Below, piece after piece: positions 3,196 to 27,294 of a DNA stretch of 27,736 nt. Every line of letters begins with the position of its first letter. Position 1 is the first letter of the stretch. A program made the position numbers and the translations under genes. The stretch comes from a virus. The notes beneath the pieces are model-generated. The model was not told the origin of the DNA, did not search any database, and was given only the letters and a program-made list of their open reading frames with translations. The stretch is from IMG/VR virus record IMGVR_UViG_3300020162_000792, positions 1 through 27,736 of that record; one strand, given 5' to 3'.

Positions 3196-3585
3196 TTAAC
3201 CTGCCTGTATATATTCATTGTCTTCGTTAAAGTAACTTTCAAGATGTTCAAAACCTATAGCCCAATGATAAGGTTCACGCTCATCATGAAGATTTTGCAA
3301 TTCACTAAGCAAATCTACATTGTAAGCCCAATTAGGAATTGAATTTTCAATTGCTTTTCTAACTCTTATATCGCTTGGTGAACTATTTTCAAATTCATCT
3401 GAATAGAAATCATCATCCATTAAACAACCAACGGCACACATCAATACATCACCGTTTTCTTTTTGCGCACGATAATAGCAAGATAATGACCAAGGGTCTA
3501 CCGATTTTTCATTCTGTTTTAGAAGATGTTCTTTAACATAGTTAAATACATCATAATCAGTTTTTAAGTTTATAAGTACCATCAC
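3196..3585 (-). CDS. Conserved phage protein of the CxYRx...CAVG family (paralogue of 120-668)
   Basis: 129 residues. It shares, in order, a LLKQ..KS helix, a Cys-x-Tyr-Arg motif, G-x-x-L-x-CAVG, a D..Y.D..E segment, an NW pair, a LL..LQ..HD..EP stretch and a final W with the protein at 120-668. This shows a duplication inside the window. The start is GTG at 3585 or the adjacent ATG at 3582; either overlaps the stop of the upstream gene, and AAGG lies upstream. The family is common in phages; I know of no assigned function. Confidence 0.85.
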   Translation of the reverse strand: MMVLINLKTDYDVFNYVKEHLLKQNEKSVDPWSLSCYYRAQKENGDVLMCAVGCLMDDDFYSDEFENSSPSDIRVRKAIENSIPNWAYNVDLLSELQNLHDEREPYHWAIGFEHLESYFNEDNEYIQAG

Positions 3586-5077: not shown

Positions 5078-5218
5078 CGACAAAAGAGATAAGCAAAAAA
5101 CATTTATGAAGTACCAATGAAACTAAAAACTCCATATTTGACATTTCCCATTCATACCCCAAATGAGCAAATGCATATTTTTCTTAACCCGAAAGGTTGG
5201 GCTTAGCTTATCTCTTAG

Positions 5219-5292
5219 CGTATCCGATAGGACTTGAACCTATAACCTAAACATTAGAAGTGTTTTGCTCTATCCAATTGAGCTACGGATAC
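5219..5292 (-). tRNA. tRNA-Arg (anticodon UCU)
   Basis: A full cloverleaf is visible on the minus strand. The acceptor stem is 7 bp (GTATCCG with CGGATAC), the D arm GCTC/GAGC has a 9-nt loop containing GG, the anticodon stem AAACA/TGTTT encloses a CTTCTAA loop with anticodon TCT, the variable loop has 5 nt, and the T arm ATAGG/CCTAT encloses TTCAAGT. The discriminator is G, and CCA is not encoded. It reads AGA, a favoured Arg codon in AT-rich genes, so it may supplement the host tRNA pool (inference). Confidence 0.95.
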
Positions 5293-5546: not shown

Positions 5547-6083
5547 TTAGTTAGAAATCTTCCAATTCATTAGTTTGCCTTTTGAATTATCCATGATATA
5601 TTTTGCAACACTTAAGTTGCAATCTAATTCTAATAGACCATCCAAATCCGTTCCGCAAACATTTTTAGTTACTGTTTTCCATGAACTATTAATTTGAACT
5701 AATCCTCTGTCAATAGAACCATTCTTATTCAAAGTCCAAATAACATTTCCATTTGCATCAAATTTTGCATTTATTGCTTTAGGATTACATCCACTCTCTC
5801 TCCAAGCAATATATGAAAACACCTGCACAGGTAATTTATATTCTTTGAATTTAGAATGAAACTGAGGACAACGCTTATTCTTATCCGCAGGAACTCTATG
5901 ATCCAACCAATCAGGTCTATCAATAGCCATTGGCTTAGTATTAAGCTCAACGACATCAATAACCACTGAATATGAATTTGTATTAACAACATTCATTTCA
6001 TCACTAGAAGCGTAAGCTATTGAGCCTACGATTCCTATATACATACTTATAATTACACTTATTAAAGAACTTTTTGTCTTCAT
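5547..6083 (-). CDS. Secreted lytic-transglycosylase/lysozyme-like protein
   Basis: 178 residues. A signal peptide covers about residues 1-25: basic KTK, a hydrophobic core, and AYA as a likely cleavage site. The domain from about residue 85 has the SLT/goose-lysozyme pattern: ES at 96-97 with Glu96 as the likely catalytic acid, P101 and N105, then NGS.DRGL.QIN at 121-132 and W135. Four Cys (72, 99, 143, 155) could form two disulfides outside the membrane. It would cleave glycan strands of peptidoglycan, for lysis or as a secreted cell-wall enzyme. GGAGG precedes the ATG. It lies far from the structural genes; a small membrane protein is encoded about 570 bp upstream. Confidence 0.85.
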   Translation of the reverse strand: MKTKSSLISVIISMYIGIVGSIAYASSDEMNVVNTNSYSVVIDVVELNTKPMAIDRPDWLDHRVPADKNKRCPQFHSKFKEYKLPVQVFSYIAWRESGCNPKAINAKFDANGNVIWTLNKNGSIDRGLVQINSSWKTVTKNVCGTDLDGLLELDCNLSVAKYIMDNSKGKLMNWKISN

Positions 6084-7213: not shown

Positions 7214-7552
7214 CTAGTTCTCTTCCAGAAGTGTTTTAATAATTTTCTTATTATTCTTTTTAAGATCTGGAGATAAACCTTTATGAACCATCTCATTGAA
7301 ATATTGTATATTCTTAGTTATTTCACGATGTGTTGCTGAATGAGGATTGTAAAAATATTCTTTAACATGACCGACTTCATCAGTACCAGTCTGATATTCA
7401 AATATTCTTGCATACCAATTATCAGGCTTAAACCCATGTTGATTCTCACATATTTGTCCAGCAATACTCAAAGCTTCTTGAATTGTATTTACTGTATCAA
7501 CTTGGATCGGAAACCTAAACTCAACAACGAAATAATTTCCATACTTTGGCAT
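7214..7552 (-). CDS. Conserved phage protein with W-A-R-I-F-E-Y and EYFYNP motifs, 112 aa
   Basis: The protein begins with a strand-rich part and a helix, then has DNWYARIFEY and KEYFYNPHSATHR. I recall this pattern (W.ARvFEYttG...vkEYFYNP.S.t.R) from small actinophage proteins of unknown function. The C-terminal third is Lys/Asn-rich. AAGGAG lies just before the ATG. It abuts the gene for the large ATPase/peptidase-like protein (8-bp spacer) and the HNH gene. Confidence 0.8.
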   Translation of the reverse strand: MPKYGNYFVVEFRFPIQVDTVNTIQEALSIAGQICENQHGFKPDNWYARIFEYQTGTDEVGHVKEYFYNPHSATHREITKNIQYFNEMVHKGLSPDLKKNNKKIIKTLLEEN

Positions 7553-7560
7553 GATTCTCC

Positions 7561-9192
7561 TTAGTGAATAATACTAATAGTGAATGGTTCAGCAATTTCA
7601 ATAAAGAAGCGTGTGCCGTTATCAATTGCAATTGCGCAACCAACACCAGTATCTAATCCATGAGAATGGATTTTGTAAGCTCTTTTACCAATTGACATTA
7701 CAAAACACTCTAGCACTCTTGACCATTCAATATTATATTGAATCCCACCTAATTCAGAAATGCTTTCTAATGGAATATATATACCATCTTTCCCAACTTG
7801 AATCAACTCTGGGCGATAGAATTCGCACATCATTTGTCCAATTCTTCGGTCAGCTAAATCCCTAAACTTTCTACCGATCACATCTCCATCTGAATATCCA
7901 GTTTCATAGTGATCGTATTCATGAACAACGGTTGCAACTATTTCATTTAGCTCACCGTTAAGCGCATGATTTCTATCAATCAAAATTTGCTTGTCATCTG
8001 TATCTGGATTAATTACAACACCGAGGTAGTGATCTTTTTGCTTAGGAATAAAGCAAGCAATTGGCTTTTCCAATTGCAATAAACCTGGTTCAAATCTTGC
8101 TGCAATTTCAATTGCTTTAATCAGCTTTGGATACTTACTAATATCATGATCAATATCATAATTAATAGCTTCTCCAGCAATACTGTCAATTGTTTGAATT
8201 CCAGCCTTCTTCAAAACCCAAAAGAAAAAGCTGGAACTAATCATCTTAAAGTCCAGACCTTTTTCTTTAATGAAAGACACATACGCTTGATTTAAAGATT
8301 GATCAGGCGTAACCATAATGCATTTCTCACCATAAAGCTCTGTCCAAGCTTCATGCCAAGTGTTATCAACATCATGCATTGAACCAGTAAATTCAAATTC
8401 AACATAATTCTTAGTAGAATTTGATAGCTGAATGATATTCTTTACAATTGAAATATCATTACACTCACAGATAGCCTGGGCAATTCTATAATTCATTGTC
8501 CATTCATCTGCTACTGTACGCATTTCATTTAGTTTGATATTCTGAACTTCATAATCAAACATTGATGTATACTCTTCATTTTCATAAACCATTACTTGCT
8601 TGTGATAAACATGAGTATTTTTATCAAATGGCTTGTAGAAGCTAACTTTATTATAATTTGGTTCGTTGGTATATAACGCTTTGCGATTTTCAAGAAAATA
8701 CTTATCGTGATCGTTATAAATTTCCATCATATTAGGTGACGCAGTGATATAAACAGAAAATTCATTCAAGTTAGAAGCAACATCTTTTGCATCAACTATT
8801 TCACGACTCCATGTCGTTCCTGAAGTCTTAGCTTCATCCATAGCATTTGCAATTGCTTCTCTATAAATTTGAAATTCATCTTCCCAACTCAATACACCAG
8901 CATCAACCGTAAACGAAGACGATTTCTTATAGTCACCGTAATCGTAAACGATACAGTCAACTCCATCTTCCTTCTCTACTTTATACTTAAGGACATACTG
9001 ACCCTTATCGTCTTGACCAGTAAAAATCCAATCCAATCCCATACGCAAAGCTGCAATCGGAGCATATTTAATACCTGAACCGAATTGACCAATCGTATCT
9101 GGATCATTTCTTTTAGTAGATAGCCCTAGTTTTTCTAGGGCTATCCGACTAACATTCTCTGATTGATTAGAGATTTTAATATACTTTGACAT
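7561..9192 (-). CDS. Protein with GHKL-like ATPase motifs and an HExxH metalloprotease motif, 543 aa
   Basis: The largest gene of the left part. Residues 34-44 (IGQFGSGIKYA) match the glycine-rich ATP-lid box of GHKL ATPases. Residues 112-120 (EAIANAMDE) match the N box, with N116 and D119 where Mg-ATP ligands would lie. The order, glycine box before N box, is reversed from the usual GHKL order. Residues 424-435 are HEYDHYETGYSD, an HExxH zinc motif followed by G and D, as in small metallopeptidases. The middle (about 150-400) is not recognised. It may use ATP and cut a protein, host or phage; both activities are inferred. AGGAAGG precedes the ATG. Confidence 0.75.
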   Translation of the reverse strand: MSKYIKISNQSENVSRIALEKLGLSTKRNDPDTIGQFGSGIKYAPIAALRMGLDWIFTGQDDKGQYVLKYKVEKEDGVDCIVYDYGDYKKSSSFTVDAGVLSWEDEFQIYREAIANAMDEAKTSGTTWSREIVDAKDVASNLNEFSVYITASPNMMEIYNDHDKYFLENRKALYTNEPNYNKVSFYKPFDKNTHVYHKQVMVYENEEYTSMFDYEVQNIKLNEMRTVADEWTMNYRIAQAICECNDISIVKNIIQLSNSTKNYVEFEFTGSMHDVDNTWHEAWTELYGEKCIMVTPDQSLNQAYVSFIKEKGLDFKMISSSFFFWVLKKAGIQTIDSIAGEAINYDIDHDISKYPKLIKAIEIAARFEPGLLQLEKPIACFIPKQKDHYLGVVINPDTDDKQILIDRNHALNGELNEIVATVVHEYDHYETGYSDGDVIGRKFRDLADRRIGQMMCEFYRPELIQVGKDGIYIPLESISELGGIQYNIEWSRVLECFVMSIGKRAYKIHSHGLDTGVGCAIAIDNGTRFFIEIAEPFTISIIH

Positions 9193-11303: not shown

Positions 11304-11486
11304 TTAAACTTCTGTAACTTCTGTGTAAATAGAAGTCATACTGCCAAGTGTTGTTATTTTAGATTCTCTTGATGAAATCAAATCAGCAATCTGTTCTGCT
11401 TCATCAATATTTAACAAATCCAAATAAATATCCTTAACAATTCTTACCTTAAATGATTTTTCTCTATCCAAGTATTTTGTTACCAT
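11304..11486 (-). CDS. Small hypothetical protein, 60 aa
   Basis: Not recognised. It has a basic first part, then a strand-helix pattern (VRIVKDIYLDLLNIDEAEQI) and a Thr/Ser-rich end. It overlaps the end of the WhiB gene by 23 bp and should be translated from the same mRNA. The hairpin at 11263-11294 lies 10 bp after its stop. Confidence 0.7.
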   Translation of the reverse strand: MVTKYLDREKSFKVRIVKDIYLDLLNIDEAEQIADLISSRESKITTLGSMTSIYTEVTEV

Positions 11487-11751
11487 GTTTTACTACAATC
11501 TCTTTCGCTTGATTAATCTCCATTTTATTTTGATATAGCCGATGATACTTTCGTCTTTCTCTTTGTGAAAGCCCACCCCAAACGCCATAAATTTCATCAG
11601 CTCTAATTGATTGATTTAAGCATTCTGCTGCGACAGGACATCTTTCACAAACTTTCTTAGCCCTTTGTATTGCATTAATATCTTCGGCAAAGAAATCAAT
11701 TCCTTTAACTATTCTACAATTTGCTCTTTCACTCCAATGTTCATTCGTCAT
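11464..11751 (-). CDS. WhiB-like (Wbl) Fe-S transcription factor
   Basis: 95 residues. The four Wbl cysteines are present: C12, then C35-x2-C38-x5-C44, which hold a 4Fe-4S cluster in the family. The GVWGG turn follows at 56-60, then a basic RERRKYHR segment that is the usual DNA-contact region. Wbl proteins bind the host principal sigma factor and change promoter choice; they occur only in Actinobacteria and their phages, so this gene is the best host marker in the window. It could redirect host transcription or regulate the phage. GAGGAAAC precedes the ATG, which lies within the end of the upstream acidic gene. Confidence 0.95.
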   Translation of the reverse strand: MTNEHWSERANCRIVKGIDFFAEDINAIQRAKKVCERCPVAAECLNQSIRADEIYGVWGGLSQRERRKYHRLYQNKMEINQAKEIVVKHGNKILG

Positions 11752-18282: not shown

Positions 18283-19110
18283 TTAACCCTGAATTTCAGC
18301 TGGTTTTTGAGAAATAGAGATTAGGTAATCCATCATATTTCCCTCATAGTTAAATCTACCTAGATGTTGAATTTCAATTGCTGGATCAACCCAAACTTTA
18401 CCTTCAAGCTTTTGCCAATACCTACAGAATCCATAATCTTCAGATACAAATCTACCATCATCATCTACATAAGAATTAAAGAAAGCATATGTCCAGTTCT
18501 TTTCTTCATCACTCATTGAACCTGTATCATCATTAAACTTTAATTCAGGATATGCTTCAATGAGCTTTTCAATAACCGATCTTTTAATGCACATAAAACC
18601 AGTACCAGCATCATGAACAGCAATTGCACCATTATCTGTTTCAATTGTATTATTCCCAGCACGAACAGGATTTACTACAAACCTTGTAGATTTCTTTGCC
18701 AATTCTTTTGCAGGAACATCTTTACCAACATTTTCTACAACTTTATCCCAGTTGATATCCTTAATCGGATACGATCCAGTAATGATTTCCTTATCATGCC
18801 AAAGAAGCTTTACAATATCTTCAGGTCTAAACGCAAGATCAACATCAAGAAAAATTAAATGAGTAAACTGTGGATTAGCCATAAACTTAGCGACAAGGTT
18901 ATTCCTAGCTCTGTTGATAAGAGAATCCGTAATTGTACTCACTGCAAATTTGCAATTGATTTCTTTTAGATACATCACTGTCTTCATAAAAGACATAAAG
19001 AAAGGTTCAGTCAATGATCTATCGTAACATGGAAGCCCAAACATTGGACACCACGAATCAATATCTTCTCTATCAATTTCAATATTCTGTTGTTCAATTT
19101 CTATTGTCAT
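18283..19110 (-). CDS. GT-A fold glycosyltransferase
   Basis: 275 residues. The pattern is that of phage GT2-like enzymes: an N-terminal strand region with ITDSLINRARNNLV, then THLIFLDVDLAFRPEDI holding the DxD motif (D89-V-D91) that binds the metal and nucleotide sugar, GTGFMCIKR, SEDYGFCRYW with an acidic catalytic residue, and a final H-x-G near the C-terminus. It would transfer a sugar from a nucleotide donor to DNA, protein or cell-wall glycan; the acceptor is unknown. The ATG at 19110 has no clear ribosome binding site and lies only 17 bp after a strong terminator. An internal ATG at residue 23 is possible. Confidence 0.85.
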   Translation of the reverse strand: MTIEIEQQNIEIDREDIDSWCPMFGLPCYDRSLTEPFFMSFMKTVMYLKEINCKFAVSTITDSLINRARNNLVAKFMANPQFTHLIFLDVDLAFRPEDIVKLLWHDKEIITGSYPIKDINWDKVVENVGKDVPAKELAKKSTRFVVNPVRAGNNTIETDNGAIAVHDAGTGFMCIKRSVIEKLIEAYPELKFNDDTGSMSDEEKNWTYAFFNSYVDDDGRFVSEDYGFCRYWQKLEGKVWVDPAIEIQHLGRFNYEGNMMDYLISISQKPAEIQG

Positions 19111-19126
19111 GCATCAATTATGACAT

Positions 19127-19162
19127 AAAAAAAAGCCCCCCGCAGTTTATGCGGGGGGCTTT
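19127..19162 (-). terminator. Strong Rho-independent terminator
   Basis: A 10-bp perfect stem GCCCCCCGCA/TGCGGGGGGC (19135-19144 with 19150-19159) has a 5-nt loop and is followed on the minus strand by eight T (19134-19127). It lies 22 bp after the stop of the 19184-19546 gene and would end leftward transcription from the terminase side. It is the most GC-rich point in the window. Confidence 0.95.
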
Positions 19163-19183
19163 ATGGAATAAATTTCTAAATGT

Positions 19184-19546
19184 TTATTTAGATACTTTTG
19201 TCTTTGACTTCACGCCAGTAACTTCATTTGCATTTGCAGAAAGTTTATCTGCACTAATGCCAGTGATCTTTTCAGTTGTCACACCACTTGCTTGAAAGAA
19301 TAGTGTTTCATTAACCGAATCAAAGCGGATAACAATTTTGTAACCCAACTTCTTAGCCTGAGCACGAATTCTCTGTTGCATTGAGTTGTAAGCATTACCA
19401 GGCTTAATACCAACAATATTAAACACTGCATTGCTATTTACTGACTGCTTAAGCGCATCAATAATCATATTCAATTCCTCAGACTTACGACCTGCTCGTG
19501 AAATTTCAGGAAGCTTATCTACTTTATTTACCATGAATGCTGACAT
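19184..19546 (-). CDS. Small basic protein, possible DNA-binding, 120 aa
   Basis: The start is set at the ATG at 19546 (MSAFMVNKVDKLPEISRAGRKS), with AGGAG 7 bases upstream; the longer reading from 19636 has no such site. Residues about 45-90 have a helix-rich, basic stretch (MQQRIRAQAKKLGYKIVIRF) followed by a strand pair ending in LFFQASG, a shape like a small winged or ribbon DNA-binding fold. The C-terminus is a Lys/Ser/Thr tail. It has its own leader and terminator, so it may be expressed as a single unit, which fits an abundant small protein. Confidence 0.75.
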   Translation of the reverse strand: MSAFMVNKVDKLPEISRAGRKSEELNMIIDALKQSVNSNAVFNIVGIKPGNAYNSMQQRIRAQAKKLGYKIVIRFDSVNETLFFQASGVTTEKITGISADKLSANANEVTGVKSKTKVSK

Positions 19547-19671
19547 ATTATTTCTCCTATTTATGATTTGTAGTGTAAGGACTGGCGATTTACCAGCCGT
19601 TATTTCGTTTGTAACGATATCAGCTACATGATACAAAAACCTGTTCTCAGGGTAGAAATATATAATTTTTT
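19547..19671. promoter_or_regulatory. 125-bp leader with a hairpin, possible promoter
   Basis: On the minus strand TTGTAT is followed 17 bp later by TACAAA, a weak -35/-10 pair. A GGCTGG/CCAGTCC hairpin (about 19577-19599) lies before the ribosome binding site. At the upstream end CCTG-AGAA-CAGG is followed by five T, a weak terminator for the 19672-19860 gene. Confidence 0.4.
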
Positions 19672-19860
19672 TTATTTCTTATTCAAATCCTTGTCATTAA
19701 CAGGTGAGGAGTTAAGGTAATCACTCAAAAATTCTTTCAACTTTTGATTTTCAAGTTTTACGACAGTAAGCTCCATGTTTATGGCAGCCATTTGCATTGC
19801 CATAGTGTTAATAACTTCTTCATGAGTAACCTTTAGATTTTCTAGAGATTTTCCAACCAT
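19672..19860 (-). CDS. Short coiled-coil protein, 62 aa
   Basis: The ATG at 19860 lies inside the last codons of the large terminase gene (19-bp overlap). The protein is one long helix with heptad spacing (INMELTVVKLENQKLKEFL), then a polar end. It could be a small oligomeric structural or chaperone protein, perhaps linked to packaging by its position. No family recognised. Confidence 0.7.
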   Translation of the reverse strand: MVGKSLENLKVTHEEVINTMAMQMAAINMELTVVKLENQKLKEFLSDYLNSSPVNDKDLNKK

Positions 19861-21572
19861 TGTTCTGCATCCACCTTTGTTTCACCATATCCTGGAACGA
19901 ATTGCCCAATATTATCATTATACACTCTTACAGTCCCAAATTCAGGCATATCCTCATTATCTTCATAATATTTATCTGGAGCGAGGATTTCTATTTCTAC
20001 TTCCGCATCAATTACCATATTCTCAATACAAACAAATGTCGCACCAGTAACAGCATCGGCTAAGTCTTTTGATCCAGAATTTGGGTGATCAATTTTATTA
20101 TTTCCAAATAATCTAAGCTTTAGCAATTCTTCTTCAACTAATAGCTCATTCCAATAACCACGCAATCTCGTATCATAAATAGCAGTCATTAAAGTATCAT
20201 AATCCGTTTTCTTTACGGAATGGAAATCAGCATTAATACCTTGACTCCTTAGGCTTTGAATCATTTCAATTGATTGCCAACGGTCAAATGTAACCTTAGC
20301 TACATCAAATTTCCTACACAGATCAACAATCATTTGTCTAATTGAAGCAAAATTAATTTCTTTATTAATTGATGCTTCCCATGAGTAAACAAGATCAACA
20401 TTAACTACTGGTAATTGTTCAACGCCATTTAATGTTTTAACTTCTTTTACACCAGTACAATGCACCATACTAAGCGCAGCTCTATCTCGTTTCAATGCCA
20501 AGTCAATATGTATAAACCTAACTTGACCATCAGTATTATTAAACCAATTTTTAAAATTACCATTTTCATCAATTGGGTCTTCACCATACATAAACGCTTT
20601 TCTTACCAGTTCTGGATCTCTAAAGTAAGCATCTTCCATGTTTGGAGGCTCACATTCAAATCTAGCCCTAGCTTCAACAGGATTTCTAATGTATTCTGAT
20701 TCTAATTGTTCACGCTTAATCGTAGGATTAACTTCCCATGTTGCAGCTTTAATAGTCCAAGTCTTAGGTTCTTTCTTTTCTCTAGAGTTAAAATATCTCT
20801 GTTGAATAAAGTCACCTTTATAACGAGGGAATGACAAAAGAATTACTTTACCTATTTCTGGAAAGCGAGACATAATAGAAAGCTTAGACATGTTATAAAT
20901 TGCAGAAGCAGATCCTTTTGATCTTGTTTCTCCACGCAATTCCGCATCAGTTTTAAAAGCTGCAATTTCATCCAAAATAATAGTCATTACTTCATAGCCT
21001 TCCCAACCTTCAGATTCAGAGTGACCAGAAAAACATCTAACAGGGCGTGAAAAGAAAAATATTTCTGATACTCTTGGTTCAAATCCAACTCTATTGAAAT
21101 AAGGAGATCTTAACAATAAGTTTTTAAATGGTTCAAAGAATACTCTTTGTGCTTGCTGAGCATTAACAGCTAGGTTTAGCAAGTCTATATACACACCATG
21201 AGCCTTACCGTAATAAATTAATGGATCTCTAAGGCAATGAATTAGATATACTGTATACGCCATAGATATTCTTGCACAATGGTCTTTTCCAGAACCTTTT
21301 CCAAGCATACAAATAACTTCATTATCTGTATATTCTTTATACCATCTCTTTCCTTCTTCTTCTCCATGAATCGCAATCAATGTACGCTCTTTAAAAATTT
21401 GTGTAGAATGTCTTACAATTTCCAATTGAATATCAGAAAGCGGAGGTAAACCTAAATATTCTTTATCTTGTACAAATGTTTGAATATCAACAGGAGTTTC
21501 TGTAAGATCATCTTGGCGCAAAAGACGATCAAAGTCTTTTAGCTCAAGATTCATTCCCATAAATTCACTCAT
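19842..21572 (-). CDS. Large terminase subunit (packaging ATPase/nuclease)
   Basis: 576 residues, normal for TerL. The N-terminal ATPase has a Walker A variant LGKGSGKD (90-97) and Walker B IILDE (198-202) with E202 as the catalytic Glu, preceded by a Gln-rich adenine-type region. The C-terminal RNase H-like nuclease has HIDLALKRDRAAL (D357), FDRWQS (D430) and DHP..GSKDLADAV (D503/D506), the expected acidic metal ligands. It cuts concatemeric DNA and drives it into procapsids. AAGGTGG precedes the ATG. It follows the candidate small terminase and a 36-codon frame. Confidence 0.95.
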   Translation of the reverse strand: MSEFMGMNLELKDFDRLLRQDDLTETPVDIQTFVQDKEYLGLPPLSDIQLEIVRHSTQIFKERTLIAIHGEEEGKRWYKEYTDNEVICMLGKGSGKDHCARISMAYTVYLIHCLRDPLIYYGKAHGVYIDLLNLAVNAQQAQRVFFEPFKNLLLRSPYFNRVGFEPRVSEIFFFSRPVRCFSGHSESEGWEGYEVMTIILDEIAAFKTDAELRGETRSKGSASAIYNMSKLSIMSRFPEIGKVILLSFPRYKGDFIQQRYFNSREKKEPKTWTIKAATWEVNPTIKREQLESEYIRNPVEARARFECEPPNMEDAYFRDPELVRKAFMYGEDPIDENGNFKNWFNNTDGQVRFIHIDLALKRDRAALSMVHCTGVKEVKTLNGVEQLPVVNVDLVYSWEASINKEINFASIRQMIVDLCRKFDVAKVTFDRWQSIEMIQSLRSQGINADFHSVKKTDYDTLMTAIYDTRLRGYWNELLVEEELLKLRLFGNNKIDHPNSGSKDLADAVTGATFVCIENMVIDAEVEIEILAPDKYYEDNEDMPEFGTVRVYNDNIGQFVPGYGETKVDAEQWLENL

Positions 21573-21679
21573 GATTGATCACCACCTTGAGATATTGATT
21601 GATCTGGGTTTTTAAAACCTTTATGAAGGCTTAAAAAGGGTCTCATTGTATAAACCTTTATGGTAGGGGTGCTGGTCAT
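21569..21679 (-). CDS. Possible 36-aa protein between terminase genes
   Basis: An ATG at 21679, 2 bp after the upstream stop, opens a frame that ends in TGA overlapping the TerL start (ATGA). It is polar with Ser, Gly and Pro and no recognised motif. The upstream site is weak (GGA), and a second ATG lies at residue 12. The overlap suggests coupling to TerL, but it may be only leader. Confidence 0.4.
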   Translation of the reverse strand: MTSTPTIKVYTMRPFLSLHKGFKNPDQSISQGGDQS

Positions 21680-21681
21680 CA

Positions 21682-22230
21682 CTATGCATCCGCATTCATA
21701 ATTTCAAATGCGATTTCTAATTCTTTACGAACCTCATTTGCAATTTCTGGATGAAGACCAATAACATCACGCAGCACCTTAGACAAAATTTGATTCACAT
21801 TTTCTGCCTTCTGCATTCTTGCAATGTACTGGTTATCAGTAGTATTTCCAGTCAATAGTTTATGCAGCTGTGCTTTTTTAGTAGCTAATTCACCCGCAAG
21901 TTTGATTGCTTGAATTCTTGCAGGAATCATTCCGTGATCGGTTGCGATATTGACTGTTTCCCAAGCCTCTTTGCTTAATTGATCAAATTCTTGCAGCGCT
22001 TTGATTGTATTGAATTGCAACTTCTCAAGAAAGTATGGATCATCCTCAGCCTGGCGGTTGAGAATCTTCTTATATTCTTTTACATGACTCTTTGTTTTAT
22101 CAATAGGTAACGAAAGAAGGGTTGAGATTTCAGAATAGTTGTAGCCTTTTACAAAGAGCAAACCAACTTCTTCAACCTTCTTTAACTCATCTAGGAGAGT
22201 TTCTCCCGTGAATACTTCAATATCTGCCAT
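21682..22230 (-). CDS. Candidate small terminase subunit
   Basis: 182 residues. An N-terminal helix-turn-helix (residues about 22-55, with GYNYSEISTLLSLP as the turn) is followed by a long helical region with an ATKKAQLHKLL segment and a C-terminal helical part. Size, fold order (HTH then oligomerising helices) and position immediately before the large terminase fit TerS, which binds the packaging site on the genome. There is no diagnostic motif, so this rests on context. The start overlaps the end of the GT4 gene by 40 bp; no other Met lies near. Confidence 0.7.
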   Translation of the reverse strand: MADIEVFTGETLLDELKKVEEVGLLFVKGYNYSEISTLLSLPIDKTKSHVKEYKKILNRQAEDDPYFLEKLQFNTIKALQEFDQLSKEAWETVNIATDHGMIPARIQAIKLAGELATKKAQLHKLLTGNTTDNQYIARMQKAENVNQILSKVLRDVIGLHPEIANEVRKELEIAFEIMNADA

Positions 22231-23255
22231 AATCTATCTACATAGTCCTTTGAAACTTTTTCCCAAGTCATATTCTCATGAATATACTGGGCAGAAGTAA
22301 ATGTCTTATTAGACACTTCTTCATAGTTGTTTACAACATATAACATTTTATCACATAAATCATCAAAATTTGGCTTTGCCCATAATCCAGCACCTTCGTA
22401 TATACCACTCATCTTCTCATTACTCCACTCATAATCAAGAGGAACAGACATATCCGCAAACTCTTCACACGCTGTTGCGTTAGTGCAAATGGTTGGAATA
22501 CCTTTTGCTATAGCTTGAAATGGAATTAATCCCCACCCTTCACCACTGGTTGGGTACAATAGACAGTCGGCACAATCATAAATGCGACCTAGCTCTTCAG
22601 TGCTAACTTCCCAGTCAATTATTTCTATTTGCGGATGAGATAACCGATCCTTCATACCATTACTAATACTCCTGGCATCTGGAGGACCGTTTGATTTATA
22701 TATCAAGCGATACCCTTCCTTACCGCCAAACACCTTTATAAAAGCGTCTACAGATGTCTGAGAGTTCTTTCTGGTTGAGGGAGAACCAATGCTTAGGAAT
22801 GTAAATGGGGTATGCGGATGTCGCTTTACTGGAAAGAATATGTCTGGATTAACACCGAGGTTGAAAGCATATACTGGAACCGTCACTCCAGAATTTATAA
22901 ATACATCACGCATAAAGCGAGATGTGGTCCAAACCTCATCCATTTTATTACAATCAACAACCCATGAATCTGGCAGCTTATTTGTTTCCCAGTATGTAAG
23001 CCCAATTGAATATATGCTTGATCCTATAAAAAATTCTGGCATTGAATGATTGATGACAATTTCATCATAAGATTCTCTAGTTGTCATGTAACCAAAAGAA
23101 AAACCATCAAGCAGGGTCTGAATTTCTGACGGAGCAGTAGAGTTATTTTTTCTTATCGGTAGATCACTTTTTGATATCTGACCGTACAGGTTATCTGGGA
23201 CATATCCGTAACCAACACTTACCGATGCAGCTTGGTTATCTGACCATACAATCAT
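22191..23255 (-). CDS. GT4-type glycosyltransferase (GT-B fold)
   Basis: 354 residues. The first half has a Rossmann-like region with WETNKLPDSWV and NKMDEVWTTSRF, the usual acceptor-side linker. The second half has FLSIGSPSTRKN and a nucleotide-sugar binding end with YPTSGEGWGLIPFQAIAKG (about 234-252), the E-x7-E-like signature region of GT4. It would move a sugar from a nucleotide donor to an acceptor. Its place between a YkgJ protein and the terminase genes is not explained. The start overlaps the upstream stop by one base. Confidence 0.9.
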   Translation of the reverse strand: MIVWSDNQAASVSVGYGYVPDNLYGQISKSDLPIRKNNSTAPSEIQTLLDGFSFGYMTTRESYDEIVINHSMPEFFIGSSIYSIGLTYWETNKLPDSWVVDCNKMDEVWTTSRFMRDVFINSGVTVPVYAFNLGVNPDIFFPVKRHPHTPFTFLSIGSPSTRKNSQTSVDAFIKVFGGKEGYRLIYKSNGPPDARSISNGMKDRLSHPQIEIIDWEVSTEELGRIYDCADCLLYPTSGEGWGLIPFQAIAKGIPTICTNATACEEFADMSVPLDYEWSNEKMSGIYEGAGLWAKPNFDDLCDKMLYVVNNYEEVSNKTFTSAQYIHENMTWEKVSKDYVDRLWQILKYSREKLS

Positions 23256-24019
23256 TATTCAACTGGGTCGTGTTGGGGGAATCTTAGCTCTACCTTAACA
23301 GCGTCAGCTTCTTTCTTAAGAGTGTCGTAGTCATACCCATGCTCTTTTGTAAACTGAACTCTATAATTAAACCAGCCTTCAACACCCTTCCAAAATTTAG
23401 AATCAGTGGTCTTCTCTAGTTCAATCAATTCTTCTGGCTCAAGCAGAAAGCTAAGAACACCCAATGGCATATAAACAGTCATGTTATACCCCATATCTTT
23501 TCCATTTGTATACTCTTTCAACAAGTCCTGGAACTGCATGATTACTCTTCTTACAGTGTCGCCAGTAAAATAATCAATTGATCCATTAGCGTTTCTAATT
23601 CTTGGGCAGTAATTATCTACTGTTGAGATAGTGCCAAATGTTCTGCATACCATTGGTCTGTACCCATAGATGGTACATCCACCTTTATAGAAGGCGCAGA
23701 ATTTTTTTGACTCACCACCAGGCTGCCAGGTTTCATCATACATTGCTTTTTTCAAATCTTCAACTACGCCATCAATCCATTCATCAGCAAAAGTCTTACC
23801 CTTGTCTTCCCAGTAAAGATAGTATTGCTGCCTTAGTTTAAAAGCAATGTTTGCACACTCTGTCATGTGAATAACAAGCCCAATATGGCAACACTCACCA
23901 GAGCCAAGACACTTATACTTTGTTTCATTTTGCTTTGCTTCAATAACTCTTACTTGGTTATACACCATATCAAGCTTTGCAAATGTATAAATATCTTTTG
24001 CTGTTACACTTCTTCTCAT
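23255..24019 (-). CDS. YkgJ-family cysteine-cluster protein
   Basis: 254 residues with the YkgJ pattern: GSGECC (C43, C44) with C37 before it, C55, then C108 and FYKGGCTIYGYRPMVCRTFG (C115, C125), and C138. The family binds zinc or an Fe-S cluster; its function is unclear, and it occurs in bacteria and phages. The C-terminal 100 residues are helical and not recognised. It overlaps the HTH gene by 4 bases and the GT4 gene by one. Confidence 0.85.
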   Translation of the reverse strand: MRRSVTAKDIYTFAKLDMVYNQVRVIEAKQNETKYKCLGSGECCHIGLVIHMTECANIAFKLRQQYYLYWEDKGKTFADEWIDGVVEDLKKAMYDETWQPGGESKKFCAFYKGGCTIYGYRPMVCRTFGTISTVDNYCPRIRNANGSIDYFTGDTVRRVIMQFQDLLKEYTNGKDMGYNMTVYMPLGVLSFLLEPEELIELEKTTDSKFWKGVEGWFNYRVQFTKEHGYDYDTLKKEADAVKVELRFPQHDPVE

Positions 24020-24312
24020 CTTCCCATCCTCTTTCTTTGTAATTCACTTCTCTTGCGCAATTCTCTTTTACGCTTCTCAGCATCAATCTGAGCCGCTGAC
24101 TTTTCTCTTTTAGGACCAGCCTTTGTAAGACTTCTTCCTTTTCCTCTAAACTTAAGCAAATCGTATTTCTTTACCCAGTTATAAATAGCTTGCGGAGTAA
24201 CCTCAATATTATAACTTTCTTTCAAATGCTTACAGATATCGGTAAGGTTCATTCTTCTCTGAACATACATTTCATAAAGAAAAGATTTATCTTTATAGGG
24301 TTCATTAGCCAT
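24016..24312 (-). CDS. Helix-turn-helix protein with basic tail, 98 aa
   Basis: Residues about 20-55 (LTDICKHLKESYNIEVTPQA followed by IYNWVKKY) form a helix-turn-helix like those of MerR/resolvase-type or transposase-like DNA-binding regions. The C-terminal half is extremely basic (many Lys and Arg, KRKRELRKR). It would bind DNA or RNA; a role as regulator or recombination accessory is possible. It overlaps the RuvC gene by 8 bp and YkgJ by 4. Confidence 0.8.
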   Translation of the reverse strand: MANEPYKDKSFLYEMYVQRRMNLTDICKHLKESYNIEVTPQAIYNWVKKYDLLKFRGKGRSLTKAGPKREKSAAQIDAEKRKRELRKRSELQRKRMGR

Positions 24313-24901
24313 TAACAGACCCCTGTATCTTCTTTAAAGCAAACCATAAACCAATCCCTGCAGCATCTATAATATCATCATCGTCAATACCGATGTCGCC
24401 TTTATCAAAATATTTACTTACGATATTTCTAACTCTTTTCTTTCTTTCGTTCTTTTGCTTGATCTGGAGAGAACCTTTCTCACCATCATTTTTAAATGCC
24501 TCAGTATCCTTCTTTGAAAGATTTTTATACCCGATGCCAGACTTCCACATTAACGGGTTGACATCTGTAACCAGGCAGCCTCCAGCGCTGAGTACTCCCC
24601 AACTGTAGCCAATAACATACGAGATAATCCTGCTCGTTTCAAAATTTTGTACATAAATAGATTGTTCAATAATCGCATTTTTCGGTCTATACTCCTTGAT
24701 TATTTCATTCAAACCAATGTCAATAGCTTTAAATTTAAGTGAAACATCTTTATCTTTTTTATAATCAATTTTACCATTCGCTACGAGATCAATCTTGTCT
24801 AGGGTTACATCATAAATAACCCAAGCAAGAGAATGCGAGGATGGGTCTATAGCAACAATTCGCTCAGATTTAATTGATGAAACAAGTGATCTTACACTCA
24901 T
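24305..24901 (-). CDS. RuvC-like Holliday junction resolvase
   Basis: 198 residues with the RNase H fold pattern of phage RuvC proteins: AIDPSSHSLAW (D19), an acidic AIIEQS (E79), a basic middle, and the final DDDIIDAAGIGLW (D176/D179). These four acidic residues bind two metals and cut four-way DNA junctions symmetrically. In phages such enzymes resolve branched replication DNA before packaging. The gene shares overlaps with a zinc-ribbon gene upstream and a DNA-binding gene downstream. Confidence 0.9.
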   Translation of the reverse strand: MSVRSLVSSIKSERIVAIDPSSHSLAWVIYDVTLDKIDLVANGKIDYKKDKDVSLKFKAIDIGLNEIIKEYRPKNAIIEQSIYVQNFETSRIISYVIGYSWGVLSAGGCLVTDVNPLMWKSGIGYKNLSKKDTEAFKNDGEKGSLQIKQKNERKKRVRNIVSKYFDKGDIGIDDDDIIDAAGIGLWFALKKIQGSVNG

Positions 24902-25209
24902 TCCATACCACGCCTAACATTGTCTTCTGACCAGCCCCAAGAGACAAGTCTTTTTACATAGCGCTCTCTTTTACAAGATTCACAAATGGTTTCTTTATTA
25001 TACCTTGATAAAACAGTTTTACAATTTTTTGTCTTACAAGTTCTTTTTTTATTTTTATTAGCTTTTTTTTCATAATAACTTGCTAATAAATTTCTATTTG
25101 TTACAATCTTTCTACATTCTGCGGAACAGTAGATGGCATTGTAAACTTTTGCACAGAATTCTTTTCCACATTCTTCGTATGCACAAATCCTATGCTCGTC
25201 ACTAGCCAT
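24898..25209 (-). CDS. Double zinc-ribbon protein, 103 aa
   Basis: Two Cys clusters: CAYEECGKEFC...YCSAECR (about 9-32) and, after a Lys-rich linker, CKTKNCK...CESCKRE (about 57-79). The first looks like the zinc ribbon at the start of HNH-type or transcription-related phage proteins, but no nuclease residues follow. It probably binds nucleic acid. A GGGTAG site precedes the ATG. Confidence 0.8.
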   Translation of the reverse strand: MASDEHRICAYEECGKEFCAKVYNAIYCSAECRKIVTNRNLLASYYEKKANKNKKRTCKTKNCKTVLSRYNKETICESCKRERYVKRLVSWGWSEDNVRRGME

Positions 25210-25232
25210 CTACCCGTTCACATAAATTAAAT

Positions 25233-25982
25233 CTAGAAGGGCTCTTCCCCTTTTCCTTCATAATCCTGCACTCCTTCTGCCCAGCAGAGAGCAGCCAAAT
25301 CACAAGAGTTACAGTTAGCCGATGTCCTCTTGTAAGGCTGGACAGGAATTTCTTGACTCAAATATGAGCCATAGAACTTCCTATACTTTTTAAATAGTTT
25401 GTCAATAAAAGGCTGATCCCGCTCAATAAAGATAGGGAGAATCTCTTGATTGTTTTTGTTTTCGTAAATCACAAAGCCAGAATCTAAGTTCAGGCATTCC
25501 ATATAAATTTGGGCTTGTCGGTAATGTTCATCTTTTGGCTTATTATGTAATTGTCTATAGTGAAAACCTTCTTGACTGATTGATTTCAGCTCAATTAGTT
25601 TTTCACCATACCAATTAATTATACCATCCGCAGTACCTTCAATTGGTGGATCTGTATGAGTTACCTTAATTTCTTCAGCAATTAGAATACCCATATCCCT
25701 GAGATAACTATAAAGTCTTTCATGAACAGCATGTCCATTATCAAAAATACGATATGTCTGAGAGCTAAATGACGGTGTTACATTTGCTCCTTCAAACATG
25801 TAATACCAATACCTAGCGCACTGATTAGTATAGCTAGGATGAAACCCATTAACTTTCTTAAAGTTTGTTGTGTTTCTAAGAGCTAAGTGATCATTAATCG
25901 CCTCAACTAGATCCTTCATTACAACCTCACCACCTTCGGGAGCTACCGCTTTTGGTGTTCTTAATTGCTTTAGTGCCTTCAT
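25233..25982 (-). CDS. Cas4/RecB-like PD-(D/E)XK exonuclease with Fe-S motif
   Basis: 249 residues. The nuclease core has GTADG (D119) and KLIELKSIS (E131, K133), the D...ExK metal site, then HYRQAQIYM, the QxxxY motif of RecB-type nucleases. Cys55 and C-terminal C224-x2-C227-x5-C233 match the four ligands of a 4Fe-4S cluster as in Cas4 and AddB. No CRISPR array or other cas gene is seen, so it likely acts in phage recombination or DNA end processing. The ATG follows AAAGGGAG. Confidence 0.9.
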   Translation of the reverse strand: MKALKQLRTPKAVAPEGGEVVMKDLVEAINDHLALRNTTNFKKVNGFHPSYTNQCARYWYYMFEGANVTPSFSSQTYRIFDNGHAVHERLYSYLRDMGILIAEEIKVTHTDPPIEGTADGIINWYGEKLIELKSISQEGFHYRQLHNKPKDEHYRQAQIYMECLNLDSGFVIYENKNNQEILPIFIERDQPFIDKLFKKYRKFYGSYLSQEIPVQPYKRTSANCNSCDLAALCWAEGVQDYEGKGEEPF

Positions 25983-26300
25983 TTAATTTACTCCCTTTGC
26001 TGCCAGTTTTAAGGCATTGATGTTTTCAGTTAGTGCTTCGTACATTGTTTTCCAAATATCATTAACAAACTTATCTTGTTCGCTCATAATAGTAGATCTT
26101 CTCTTAAAAGCTTGTGATTTCACAATCATAAGCGTTCTGTATCCAGCCAAGATGTTTGCATACTTAATAGCCTGCATACCAATGTAATCTTGCGGATTCT
26201 CAATAATGTCTTGGACAATACCCAAGCATTTAATAAATTCTTCTGACTTATCACCCATCTGCGCTGCAAGAACATCAGGGTCAACAATAATATCTGGCAT
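25983..26300 (-). CDS. Helical hypothetical protein, 105 aa
   Basis: All helical, with residues about 20-60 hydrophobic and moderately acidic and a basic stretch (FKRRSTIM) in the middle. It is encoded directly before the Cas4-like nuclease. No motif; a subunit or partner of the nuclease is possible but unproven. The start shares a base with the stop of the upstream 58-aa gene (TAATG). Confidence 0.75.
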   Translation of the reverse strand: MPDIIVDPDVLAAQMGDKSEEFIKCLGIVQDIIENPQDYIGMQAIKYANILAGYRTLMIVKSQAFKRRSTIMSEQDKFVNDIWKTMYEALTENINALKLAAKGVN

Positions 26301-26476
26301 TAGATATCCTTTCTTAGATCTTCTGTTTTAACCATAGCTTGGTATGGTGGATAAACTTTTGCAATCCCAACAAACCAAAATATAAGATTTACACCAATAG
26401 CAAACTCATCATGATCTAGGTTTATGCCAAGACTTTTATGACCAGATAATTTATCGCAACAAAATTTAATCTTCAT
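26300..26476 (-). CDS. Small protein, 58 aa
   Basis: A frame from the ATG at 26476 (MKIKFCCDKL) to TAA at 26300, overlapping both neighbours. GGAAGCG lies just upstream. There is a CC pair near the start, an acidic middle, and a hydrophobic run NLIFWFVGIA around residues 30-39, too short for a sure membrane helix. It fills a 165-bp gap in a tightly packed region, which supports its reality. Not recognised. Confidence 0.7.
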   Translation of the reverse strand: MKIKFCCDKLSGHKSLGINLDHDEFAIGVNLIFWFVGIAKVYPPYQAMVKTEDLRKDI

Positions 26477-26768
26477 ATTCGCTTCCTTTAATTAGATCCT
26501 GGAATACTTCCCAGTCAATTATAGCGACCTTTGACTCAGAGTTCTCTCCGAAAACAACAGAAATGCATGGATATTTATAGTTCGCATTCCATGCGTCTTT
26601 TCTCATCTTAGTCCAAGCTTTAAGCGTTAGCGTAAAAGTTTTTTCATTATGCTTGTAATCAACCAAAAACTTATGAAGAGAAGCATCCCCTTTCCTAAGC
26701 CCCCGCCCAGAATTCTTGACAGCCTTGGCGTTGTCACGCTTTATCTCTTCCTTCTCTGTTCTCTTCAC
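26466..26768 (-). CDS. PD-(D/E)XK resolvase-like (Hjc/Hjr-type) protein, 100 aa
   Basis: Residues about 11-50 show RDNAKAVKNSGRGLRKGDAS (GD28) followed by FLVDYKH (D37, K39), a D...DxK arrangement typical of small junction resolvases and VRR/Hjc-like nucleases. Later come a W, and PCISVVFGE and VAIIDW strands. I recall a very similar arrangement in phage proteins. It would cut DNA junctions; RuvC nearby would make two such enzymes. The motif is short, so homology is not certain. The start overlaps the upstream gene by 35-bp. Confidence 0.65.
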   Translation of the reverse strand: MKRTEKEEIKRDNAKAVKNSGRGLRKGDASLHKFLVDYKHNEKTFTLTLKAWTKMRKDAWNANYKYPCISVVFGENSESKVAIIDWEVFQDLIKGSEYED

Positions 26769-26910
26769 CCAATTCTTCTTTCAGACGATTGCGATCTGCT
26801 CTTATCAAGATGTATTGTACACGAATAGCAAGCAGTTTGCTTTCAGTTTCTCTAAGCTTTTTTTCTAACCTAGAGACTTCTTTGATTAATTTCTTTTTTG
26901 ATGTAACCAT
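26734..26910 (-). CDS. Small coiled-coil protein, 58 aa
   Basis: From the ATG at 26910 (MVTSKKKLIKEVSRLEKKL) the sequence is a continuous charged coiled coil with heptad spacing. A longer version from a TTG at 26949 is possible, since AGGAG lies about 13 bases before it, but the extra 13 residues do not fit the coil. It lies between MazG and the resolvase-like gene. No function recognised. Confidence 0.6.
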   Translation of the reverse strand: MVTSKKKLIKEVSRLEKKLRETESKLLAIRVQYILIRADRNRLKEELGEENREGRDKA

Positions 26911-26952
26911 AAGTAGATATAGGATCCCATAACTACTGTAATCGTGCAATAA

Positions 26953-27294
26953 CTATCGGTTATCTCCTGAACCTTGAATTTTACCACGGTTCATGCGATC
27001 CTCTAATTTATCTATATTTCTCATGGCAGCATAGCCAAGAGTAATTCCTAATTCATCAGCAAACATTGCGCAATACCACAACACATCACCGATCTCATCC
27101 ACGAGCTGTTCGTGACGGTCTGGGGAAATAACGCTCTGATCATCACGGAGAATCTTTTTGACCTTCCCAGCGACCTCACCAGCCTCTGATACAAGCCCCA
27201 GAGAGGTGTATAAGAGCCCCTGTAAGCCTTCTTTAGGGTAAATGGCGGTCTTTGCCGCACGAAACTGATAATTATTAAAATCCATATTGATCAT
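26953..27294 (-). CDS. MazG-like nucleotide pyrophosphohydrolase
   Basis: 113 residues. The MazG metal site is visible: SEAGEVAGKVKK (E37, E40) and DEIGDVLWY (E67, D70), with a basic loop between. MazG-type enzymes cleave nucleoside triphosphates to monophosphate and pyrophosphate; phage versions are thought to affect (p)ppGpp or modified-nucleotide pools. GGAGG lies 6 bases before the ATG at 27294; a second Met at 27285 is less well placed. The gene overlaps the end of the upstream gene by 20 bp. Confidence 0.9.
   Translation of the reverse strand: MINMDFNNYQFRAAKTAIYPKEGLQGLLYTSLGLVSEAGEVAGKVKKILRDDQSVISPDRHEQLVDEIGDVLWYCAMFADELGITLGYAAMRNIDKLEDRMNRGKIQGSGDNR

Follow-up and report, generated by a model that had tools for sequence, protein, structure and literature searches.

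A widespread phage protein family with an apparently reordered Hsp90-like ATPase and a zincin-like domain

Hsp90, gyrase, MutL, MORC proteins and histidine kinases are built on one ATP-binding fold, the segments of which normally follow each other in a fixed order. The phage protein analyzed here resembles Hsp90 (HtpG, TRAP1, Hsp82) in its G2 box (IGQFGxG), its N-box (RExxxNxxD), the LNxxR sequence of its middle domain and the fold of the N and M domains, but differs in that its N and G segments appear to have exchanged order, its G1 box carries Asn in place of Asp, and a zincin-like domain sits where Hsp90 has its C-terminal dimerization domain. The best sequence match is to MORC2 (E = 0.003), a member of the MORC/paraMORC group of GHKL-S5 proteins, in which an S5-like domain follows the GHKL domain (PMC2292703). 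These proteins, too, differ from the phage protein in segment order, and their C-terminal domains are of other kinds.

For the C-terminal half, the best domain matches are the minigluzincins (jannalysin, abylysin, selecase) and the aspzincins (Grifola frondosa zinc peptidase), which have a small zincin fold and are stand-alone peptidases, unlike the fused phage domain. Asp is the third metal ligand in aspzincins, and in both groups the spacing to the third ligand differs from that in the phage protein. The M35 aspzincin motif is HExxH with the Asp ligand contained in GTxDxxYG; in our protein an Asp does follow the second His at x6, but GTxDxxYG is absent from the translation. Wss1 and SPRTN (WLM, SprT-like) share with it the zincin fold and an HExxH carried on a helix and give weak profile and Pfam matches; they differ in the third ligand, which in the phage protein is probably an Asp located one residue past the third His of Wss1. 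The literature searched names no Wss1/SPRTN protein with a fused ATPase of this kind.

Among phage proteins, those of the T4 rIIA type are likewise GHKL proteins with a variable C-terminal part, according to PMC7824862; their structural similarity to our protein is weak, and the literature searched does not mention reordered motifs or a zincin in rIIA. True homologs are Yuavirus YuA gp29, M6 ORF071, AN14_30 (annotated 'metallopeptidase') and Epa38 'HATPase', which belong to PHROG 8203. The PHROG 8203 proteins share the reordered ATPase, the arginine loop and the zincin-like C-terminal domain; they differ in their length (about 392 amino acids), in having EExxHx6D for HExxHx6D, and in lacking a long C-terminal tail.

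The gene, its motifs and its family

The window, that is, the whole stretch of DNA analyzed (27,736 nucleotides, IMG/VR record IMGVR_UViG_3300020162_000792), carries on its minus strand a gene whose product, judged from an AlphaFold2 model and the family alignment, consists of a reordered Hsp90-like ATPase, a middle domain, a zincin and a C-terminal beta tail. The features are as follows.

7561 to 9192, minus strand: whole gene, 543 amino acids, ATG start (open reading frame, family alignment, AlphaFold2 model)
8698 to 9192, minus strand: GHKL (Bergerat) ATPase domain with a probably relocated N-box helix, residues 1-165 (MORC2 profile match, order test, fold comparison)
9166 to 9168, minus strand: codon of N9, the putative G1-box Asn (column counts)
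9061 to 9093, minus strand: G2 box, residues 34-44, close to Hsp90 IGQFGVGFYSA (Hsp90 alignment)
8821 to 8877, minus strand: N-box helix, residues 106-124 (R111-E112-x3-N116-x2-D119), behind the sheet (model helix, N-segment score)
8317 to 8697, minus strand: Hsp90-type middle (S5-like) domain, residues 166-292 (Hsp90 profile alignment, VIA rows)
8518 to 8532, minus strand: arginine loop LNEMR, residues 221-225 (profile alignment, column counts)
7822 to 8154, minus strand: zincin-like metallopeptidase domain, residues 347-457 (VIA, weak SprT-like/WLM matches)
7888 to 7923, minus strand: putative metal site HExxHx6D, residues 424-435 (50/50 conservation)
7561 to 7821, minus strand: beta-rich C-terminal tail, residues 458-543 plus stop (lengths, sequences, model secondary structure)
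7214 to 7552, minus strand: conserved downstream gene, 112 amino acids, a neighbor only (directly 3' in 60 of the 62 loci holding it)

A first-pass annotation had noted three motifs in the 543-residue protein, and in the translation of the 7561-9192 gene each lies exactly where it was placed: IGQFGSGIKYA at residues 34-44, EAIANAMDE at 112-120 and HEYDHYETGYSD at 424-435. When the window protein was shuffled at constant composition, HExxH arose in 2.2% of shuffles, [IL]Gx[FY]GxG in 0.19% and RExxxNxxD in 0.57%; 0 of 200,000 carried the complete set. Column counts over 50 aligned IMG/VR relatives from the same clade (clade A, 33-87% identity to the window protein) showed that I34, G35, F37, G38, G40, R111, E112, N116 and D119 of the ATPase part and H424, E425, H428, D435, F443, R444, A447 and D448 of the C-terminal part are identical in 50/50, indicating that the sites are constrained. 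Conservation and shuffle counts together led us to reject a chance match of the motifs.

The window protein matches PHROG 8203 (E = 4.7e-23) and PHROG 6077 (E = 2.5e-11), both listed there as of unknown function, and so do 50/50 members of the YuA-type alignment. A tblastn search with the window protein returned 63 annotated phages, mainly of the Pseudomonas Yuavirus type, and also phages of Bordetella, Bradyrhizobium and Dinoroseobacter as well as two huge phages that are uncultured. With YuA gp29 as the query, phages of Stenotrophomonas, Synechococcus and Brevundimonas were added. Scans gave 329 loci for clade A, to which the window belongs, and 287 for the YuA-type clade B, numbers that are not exact clade sizes since the scan patterns can overlap. 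A pattern scan from the huge-phage LR756511 member found no relatives, and a plasmid search found no plasmid-borne homologs of YuA gp29. When genome contigs were scanned, only two loci appeared, both on contigs with phage-like gene content that had been assigned to MAGs (Kapaibacterium and an archaeon). Most relatives carry the gene, and the five phages checked (100-109 kb) have one copy each. The peptidase motif is absent from the members in Brevundimonas MaInes, Dinoroseobacter R26L and huge phage LR756500; in the wider family, the ATPase part is constant, and what varies is the protease part, which carries HExxH, carries a fixed EExxH or is missing. The family is widespread among phages and uncharacterized. 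Single members are annotated 'HATPase' or 'metallopeptidase' in scattered phage records, so each half has been noticed before; mention of the arrangement was not found.

The small neighboring genes had been put forward as accessory. The 112-amino-acid product of the downstream gene is conserved (50-100% identical in most of its 62 loci). Close relatives have 12-14 bases between this gene and that of the ATPase, and most of the other loci have roughly 110-210. As an obligate partner it was rejected and is left out of the mechanism, because it is unrelated to YuA gp30 despite equal length and is displaced in two related loci (L086, L090).

Elsewhere in the window, a WhiB-like transcription factor gene (11464-11751, minus strand; Pfam Whib, E = 4.7e-20) has homologs in 70 related loci. 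WhiB proteins are rarely found outside Actinobacteria and the phages that infect them, and the gene suggests actinobacterial hosts for these phages. The genes at 120-668 and 3196-3585 (minus strand) appear to be paralogous, with homologs in the same 21 related loci. The product of 5547-6083 (minus strand) is a small lysozyme-like protein (Pfam SLT, E = 1.1e-6) that looks secreted, its start resembling a signal peptide, and a tRNA-Arg(TCT) lies at 5218-5292. The region 18283-27294 (minus strand) holds ordinary phage genes: large terminase, a GT4-type glycosyltransferase (Pfam GT4-conflict), a CxxCxxCC protein, a RuvC-like nuclease and MazG.

The order of segments in the ATPase half

Searches with the window protein gave zero matches in Pfam and, by phmmer, in the PDB; NCBIfam gave no curated match, a sacsin-type model (E = 0.0075) being the only one. 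The absence of significant Pfam and NCBIfam matches indicates that the reordered family escapes standard domain models. A diverse seven-member profile matched MORC2 (E = 0.0031), the sole GHKL protein recovered by sequence. The 'GxSxKR...IGQFGxGLK' stretch of the family profile is colinear with MORC2 80-146 (G1-lid-G2), a stretch that the N-box precedes in MORC2. In the phage family members examined the N-box always lies behind the G-box, and this holds also for gp29 of Pseudomonas phage YuA and the proteins related to it.

For an order test, eight aligned HtpG/Hsp90-like sequences were divided into three: an N segment comprising the N-box helix with the strand after it, a G segment (G1 to sheet) and the rest. 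Only the reference was rearranged, the phage sequence being left intact at all times, and the E-values are those of single pairwise profile comparisons with no database search behind them. Against natural-order Hsp90, the clade A profile scored 45.9, and the G part alone aligned. Moving the N segment behind the G segment raised the score to 63.0 (E = 5e-8), and both parts aligned; with the N segment placed last the score was again 45.9, and 40 shuffled N inserts gave 42.2-45.1. MutL and GyrB favored the natural order in this test (65.8 vs 52.0 and 33.0 vs 23.2, respectively). The clade B profile scored 28.2 with both orders and is too weak to discriminate; in the clade B sequences themselves, the N-box motif likewise follows the G-box. 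The N segment alone scored 33.9 against a joint A+B profile, compared with 8.0-18.5 for shuffles.

The R-E-x3-N-x2-D pattern is invariant in both clades, as are the G2 glycines (IGQFGSG in clade A, IGFFGTG in clade B). The G1 box departs from DxGxG: Asn occupies the Asp position and the second Gly is missing, clade B reading NxG. This Asn is found in 50/50 clade A sequences (N9) and in 49/50 of clade B (N6). Strand position and pattern suggest that N9 is equivalent to the G1 Asp of other GHKL proteins, and the change could alter nucleotide contacts or choice.

AlphaFold2 models of the window protein and of a clade B protein 97% identical to YuA gp29 (L096) reached mean pLDDT values of 88.0 and 90.5, from alignments that have no sequence in common. 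In VIA, rows for the window model cover its residues 1 to about 290 against Hsp90, TRAP1, MORC2 and GyrB. For both models, residue 1 falls on Hsp90/TRAP1 positions about 69-88 and 150-168, and for the clade A model also on MORC2 54-60 and GyrB 65-71. These template positions lie around the G1 strand, so that the template N-box helix falls before the aligned range. The ATPase-part matches of both models (Z = 4.5-7.4, below 8) would be modest taken by themselves; their weight comes from their agreement with the profiles. In Foldseek, the best PDB matches of the window model were Hsp90 middle/C fragments and GRP94 (E = 2e-5 to 3e-4).

The middle domain contains an invariant loop, LNExR in clade A (221-225; E223 and R225 in 50/50 relatives) and LTEDR in clade B, which aligns with Hsp90 LPLNVSRE in a profile alignment to the Hsp90 middle domain, scoring 24.4 (shuffles, 8.5-20.1). 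In Hsp90 the Arg at this place is the catalytic-loop arginine. In GHKL-S5 ATPases, a conserved basic residue comes from the S5-like domain (PMC2292703). The N-terminal half thus reads as a compact rearranged Hsp90-like N+M module.

We conclude that the N-terminal domain is almost certainly of GHKL type and that its N-box segment has very likely been relocated; a specifically Hsp90/MORC-like ATPase is supported. The first-pass annotation had read a glycine box ahead of the N box as a permuted or novel arrangement. The permuted order extends to the whole family, with scores (63.0 vs 45.9) and models in agreement; the arrangement is more specific than had been thought, being Hsp90/MORC-like with an LNExR middle domain that was then overlooked. 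Simple end-to-end circular permutation is not quite the right description: strand 144-150, the final one ahead of the middle domain, appears to be in its natural place. Transposition of the N-box helix and next strand to just before strand 144-150 appears to fit better, a reading based on the order of secondary structure in the window model and on profile alignment. We found no description of a rearranged GHKL/Bergerat domain in the literature searched, most subscription journals lying outside it.

The zincin-like C-terminal half

In VIA, yeast Wss1 is matched by residues 347-460 with Z = 6.9 (98 residues, 3.4 A), and the same region matches minigluzincins (Z = 6.7). A second family profile also put Wss1 first, weakly (E = 0.065). 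Pfam SprT-like is matched by 6/50 members (best E = 0.0013) and not by the window protein, which is below a reliable level. For the clade B domain, the best structural match in VIA was a fungal zinc peptidase (1ge6, an aspzincin; Z = 8.6, 96 residues). Some VIA rows span Hsp90 C-terminal parts in the region that carries the zincin, at rmsd 7-15.

Position 434, where Wss1 has its third His, is variable (G, T, S and others), and the next residue, D435, is invariant, for which reason it is probably the third metal ligand. Clade B has EExxHx6D, with E356, E357 and H360 in 49/50 sequences and D367 in 50/50 (residues 355-367 of L001 gp29). The clades thus differ at the first ligand position, with the rest of the site fixed, a pattern that points to a site modified yet still in use. 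The EExxH of clade B, together with members without the peptidase, indicates that some members can do without proteolysis, which may have been lost in clade B. We consider that there is little doubt about the zincin fold of the C-terminal domain; that its metal site is active in the window's clade is quite likely, and that proteins of this clade are proteolytic is probable.

The tail is missing from shorter members. In one relative (L013, 4956-6635), the protein is near-identical to the window protein to about residue 453 and continues into a different tail of similar length, which reads as an exchanged end module.

The union of a GHKL-like ATPase with an HExxH domain, as first proposed, is borne out by profiles, two models and fold comparison; structure prediction and fold search, recommended at the time along with a search for homologs, make the ATPase half Hsp90-type and the C-terminal half zincin-like. 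The homologs answer in two ways, the motif residues being retained throughout the clade A set and those of the HExxH motif departed from in clade B and in the members lacking the peptidase.

A model, its alternatives and their meaning

The three-part architecture is well supported. The best supported reading is an ATP-dependent Hsp90/MORC-type clamp, with one segment relocated, that drives or gates a minimal zincin. In residues 1-165, the helix with E112, N116 and D119 would have left its usual position ahead of the G1 strand and would now lie behind G1, lid, G2 and central sheet, just ahead of the domain's last strand. ATP binding would make two ATPase halves close and pair in the manner of Hsp90, MORC and MutL, and R225 of the middle domain (166-292) would complete or sense the active site. 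The movement would present a substrate to the metal site, or open that site, and the substrate would be cut there; possible substrates are DNA-bound proteins as well as regulatory or defense proteins of the host. We infer ATP binding, zinc binding, dimerization, cleavage and coupling of the halves, as well as the target. On balance, we favor a three-part, ATP-gated, metal-dependent protease made of a reordered GHKL domain, an Hsp90-type middle domain and a zincin, and gating of its proteolysis by ATP seems to us somewhat the better bet. The two-activity model of the first-pass annotation is strengthened in its motifs, conservation, segment order and fold similarity, and ATP binding, zinc binding, proteolysis and ATP control of the protease would be its conjectural parts. 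More tentatively, the transposed-N-box Bergerat fold may form the core of phage-wide ATP-gated metalloproteases, half of which would have been converted to a fixed EExxHx6D with altered chemistry or peptide binding; the G1 Asn may alter nucleotide choice.

An alternative, which we regard as unlikely, is that a MORC/MutL-like ATP clamp works with a Wss1/SPRTN-type protease to clear proteins on DNA (crosslinks, host nucleoid or blocking proteins). The standing of MORC2 as the only GHKL sequence match and of Wss1 as top of the other profile and among the best structural matches would agree with it, and so would the position of the gene after primase or polymerase genes in YuA-type phages and a few kb from ERF and YqaJ genes in a Bradyrhizobium phage. 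However, we found no DNA-binding motif in the window protein. Its gene is surrounded in the window by an HNH endonuclease gene, a lysozyme-like gene and small genes of unknown function; the structure fits Hsp90 relatives no worse than MORC2, and the invariant LNExR is Hsp90-like.

Somewhat less probable is an ATP-driven chaperone or binding machine in which the zincin is non-proteolytic, serving peptide binding or other metal chemistry. HExxH folds are capable of other chemistry, as in the HExxH oxygenase domain of ChlB, which appears as a Foldseek row for the window model; the first His of clade B is fixed as Glu in 49/50 with the remaining site kept, and the domain is absent from some members. 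Against this, the closest folds are peptidases, and HExxHx6D is invariant in the window's clade, as expected under selection on a working metal site.

The original suggestion of counter-defense gained no positive evidence: among PADLOC defense models, the sole match of the window protein is TmtA (E = 0.024 over 24 residues), and no link to defense or anti-defense genes was seen. A protein that degrades or disarms a host defense factor, in a role comparable to that of rIIA-type GHKL proteins, is doubtful also because the gene occurs once in each of the five phages checked and is carried by most relatives, the pattern expected of a core gene. For such a role speak the tail that differs between close relatives, as a target-facing part might, and the presence of rIIA proteins among the weaker structural matches of the window model; PMC7824862 lists rIIA among poorly understood counter-defense systems. 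Least probable of all is a GHKL-derived domain without ATP binding, in which helix 106-124 matches an N-box by accident: the changed G1 Asp and the uninformative clade B profile would allow it, but both clades keep the N-box pattern without exception, no shuffle scores as high as the N segment, and the reordered reference leads by 17 score units for clade A.

If the clamp-and-zincin reading is true, pocket residues have been kept while the N-box helix moved, and the Bergerat fold tolerates rearrangement; a reordered ATPase joined to a minimal zinc protease would constitute an ATP-gated protease outside the AAA+ world. The clade-wide exchange to EExxHx6D suits a test of altered-site function. 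Because gp29 from Yuaviruses propagated on laboratory Pseudomonas aeruginosa PAO1 belongs to the family, ATP binding, metal dependence and the target are directly testable.
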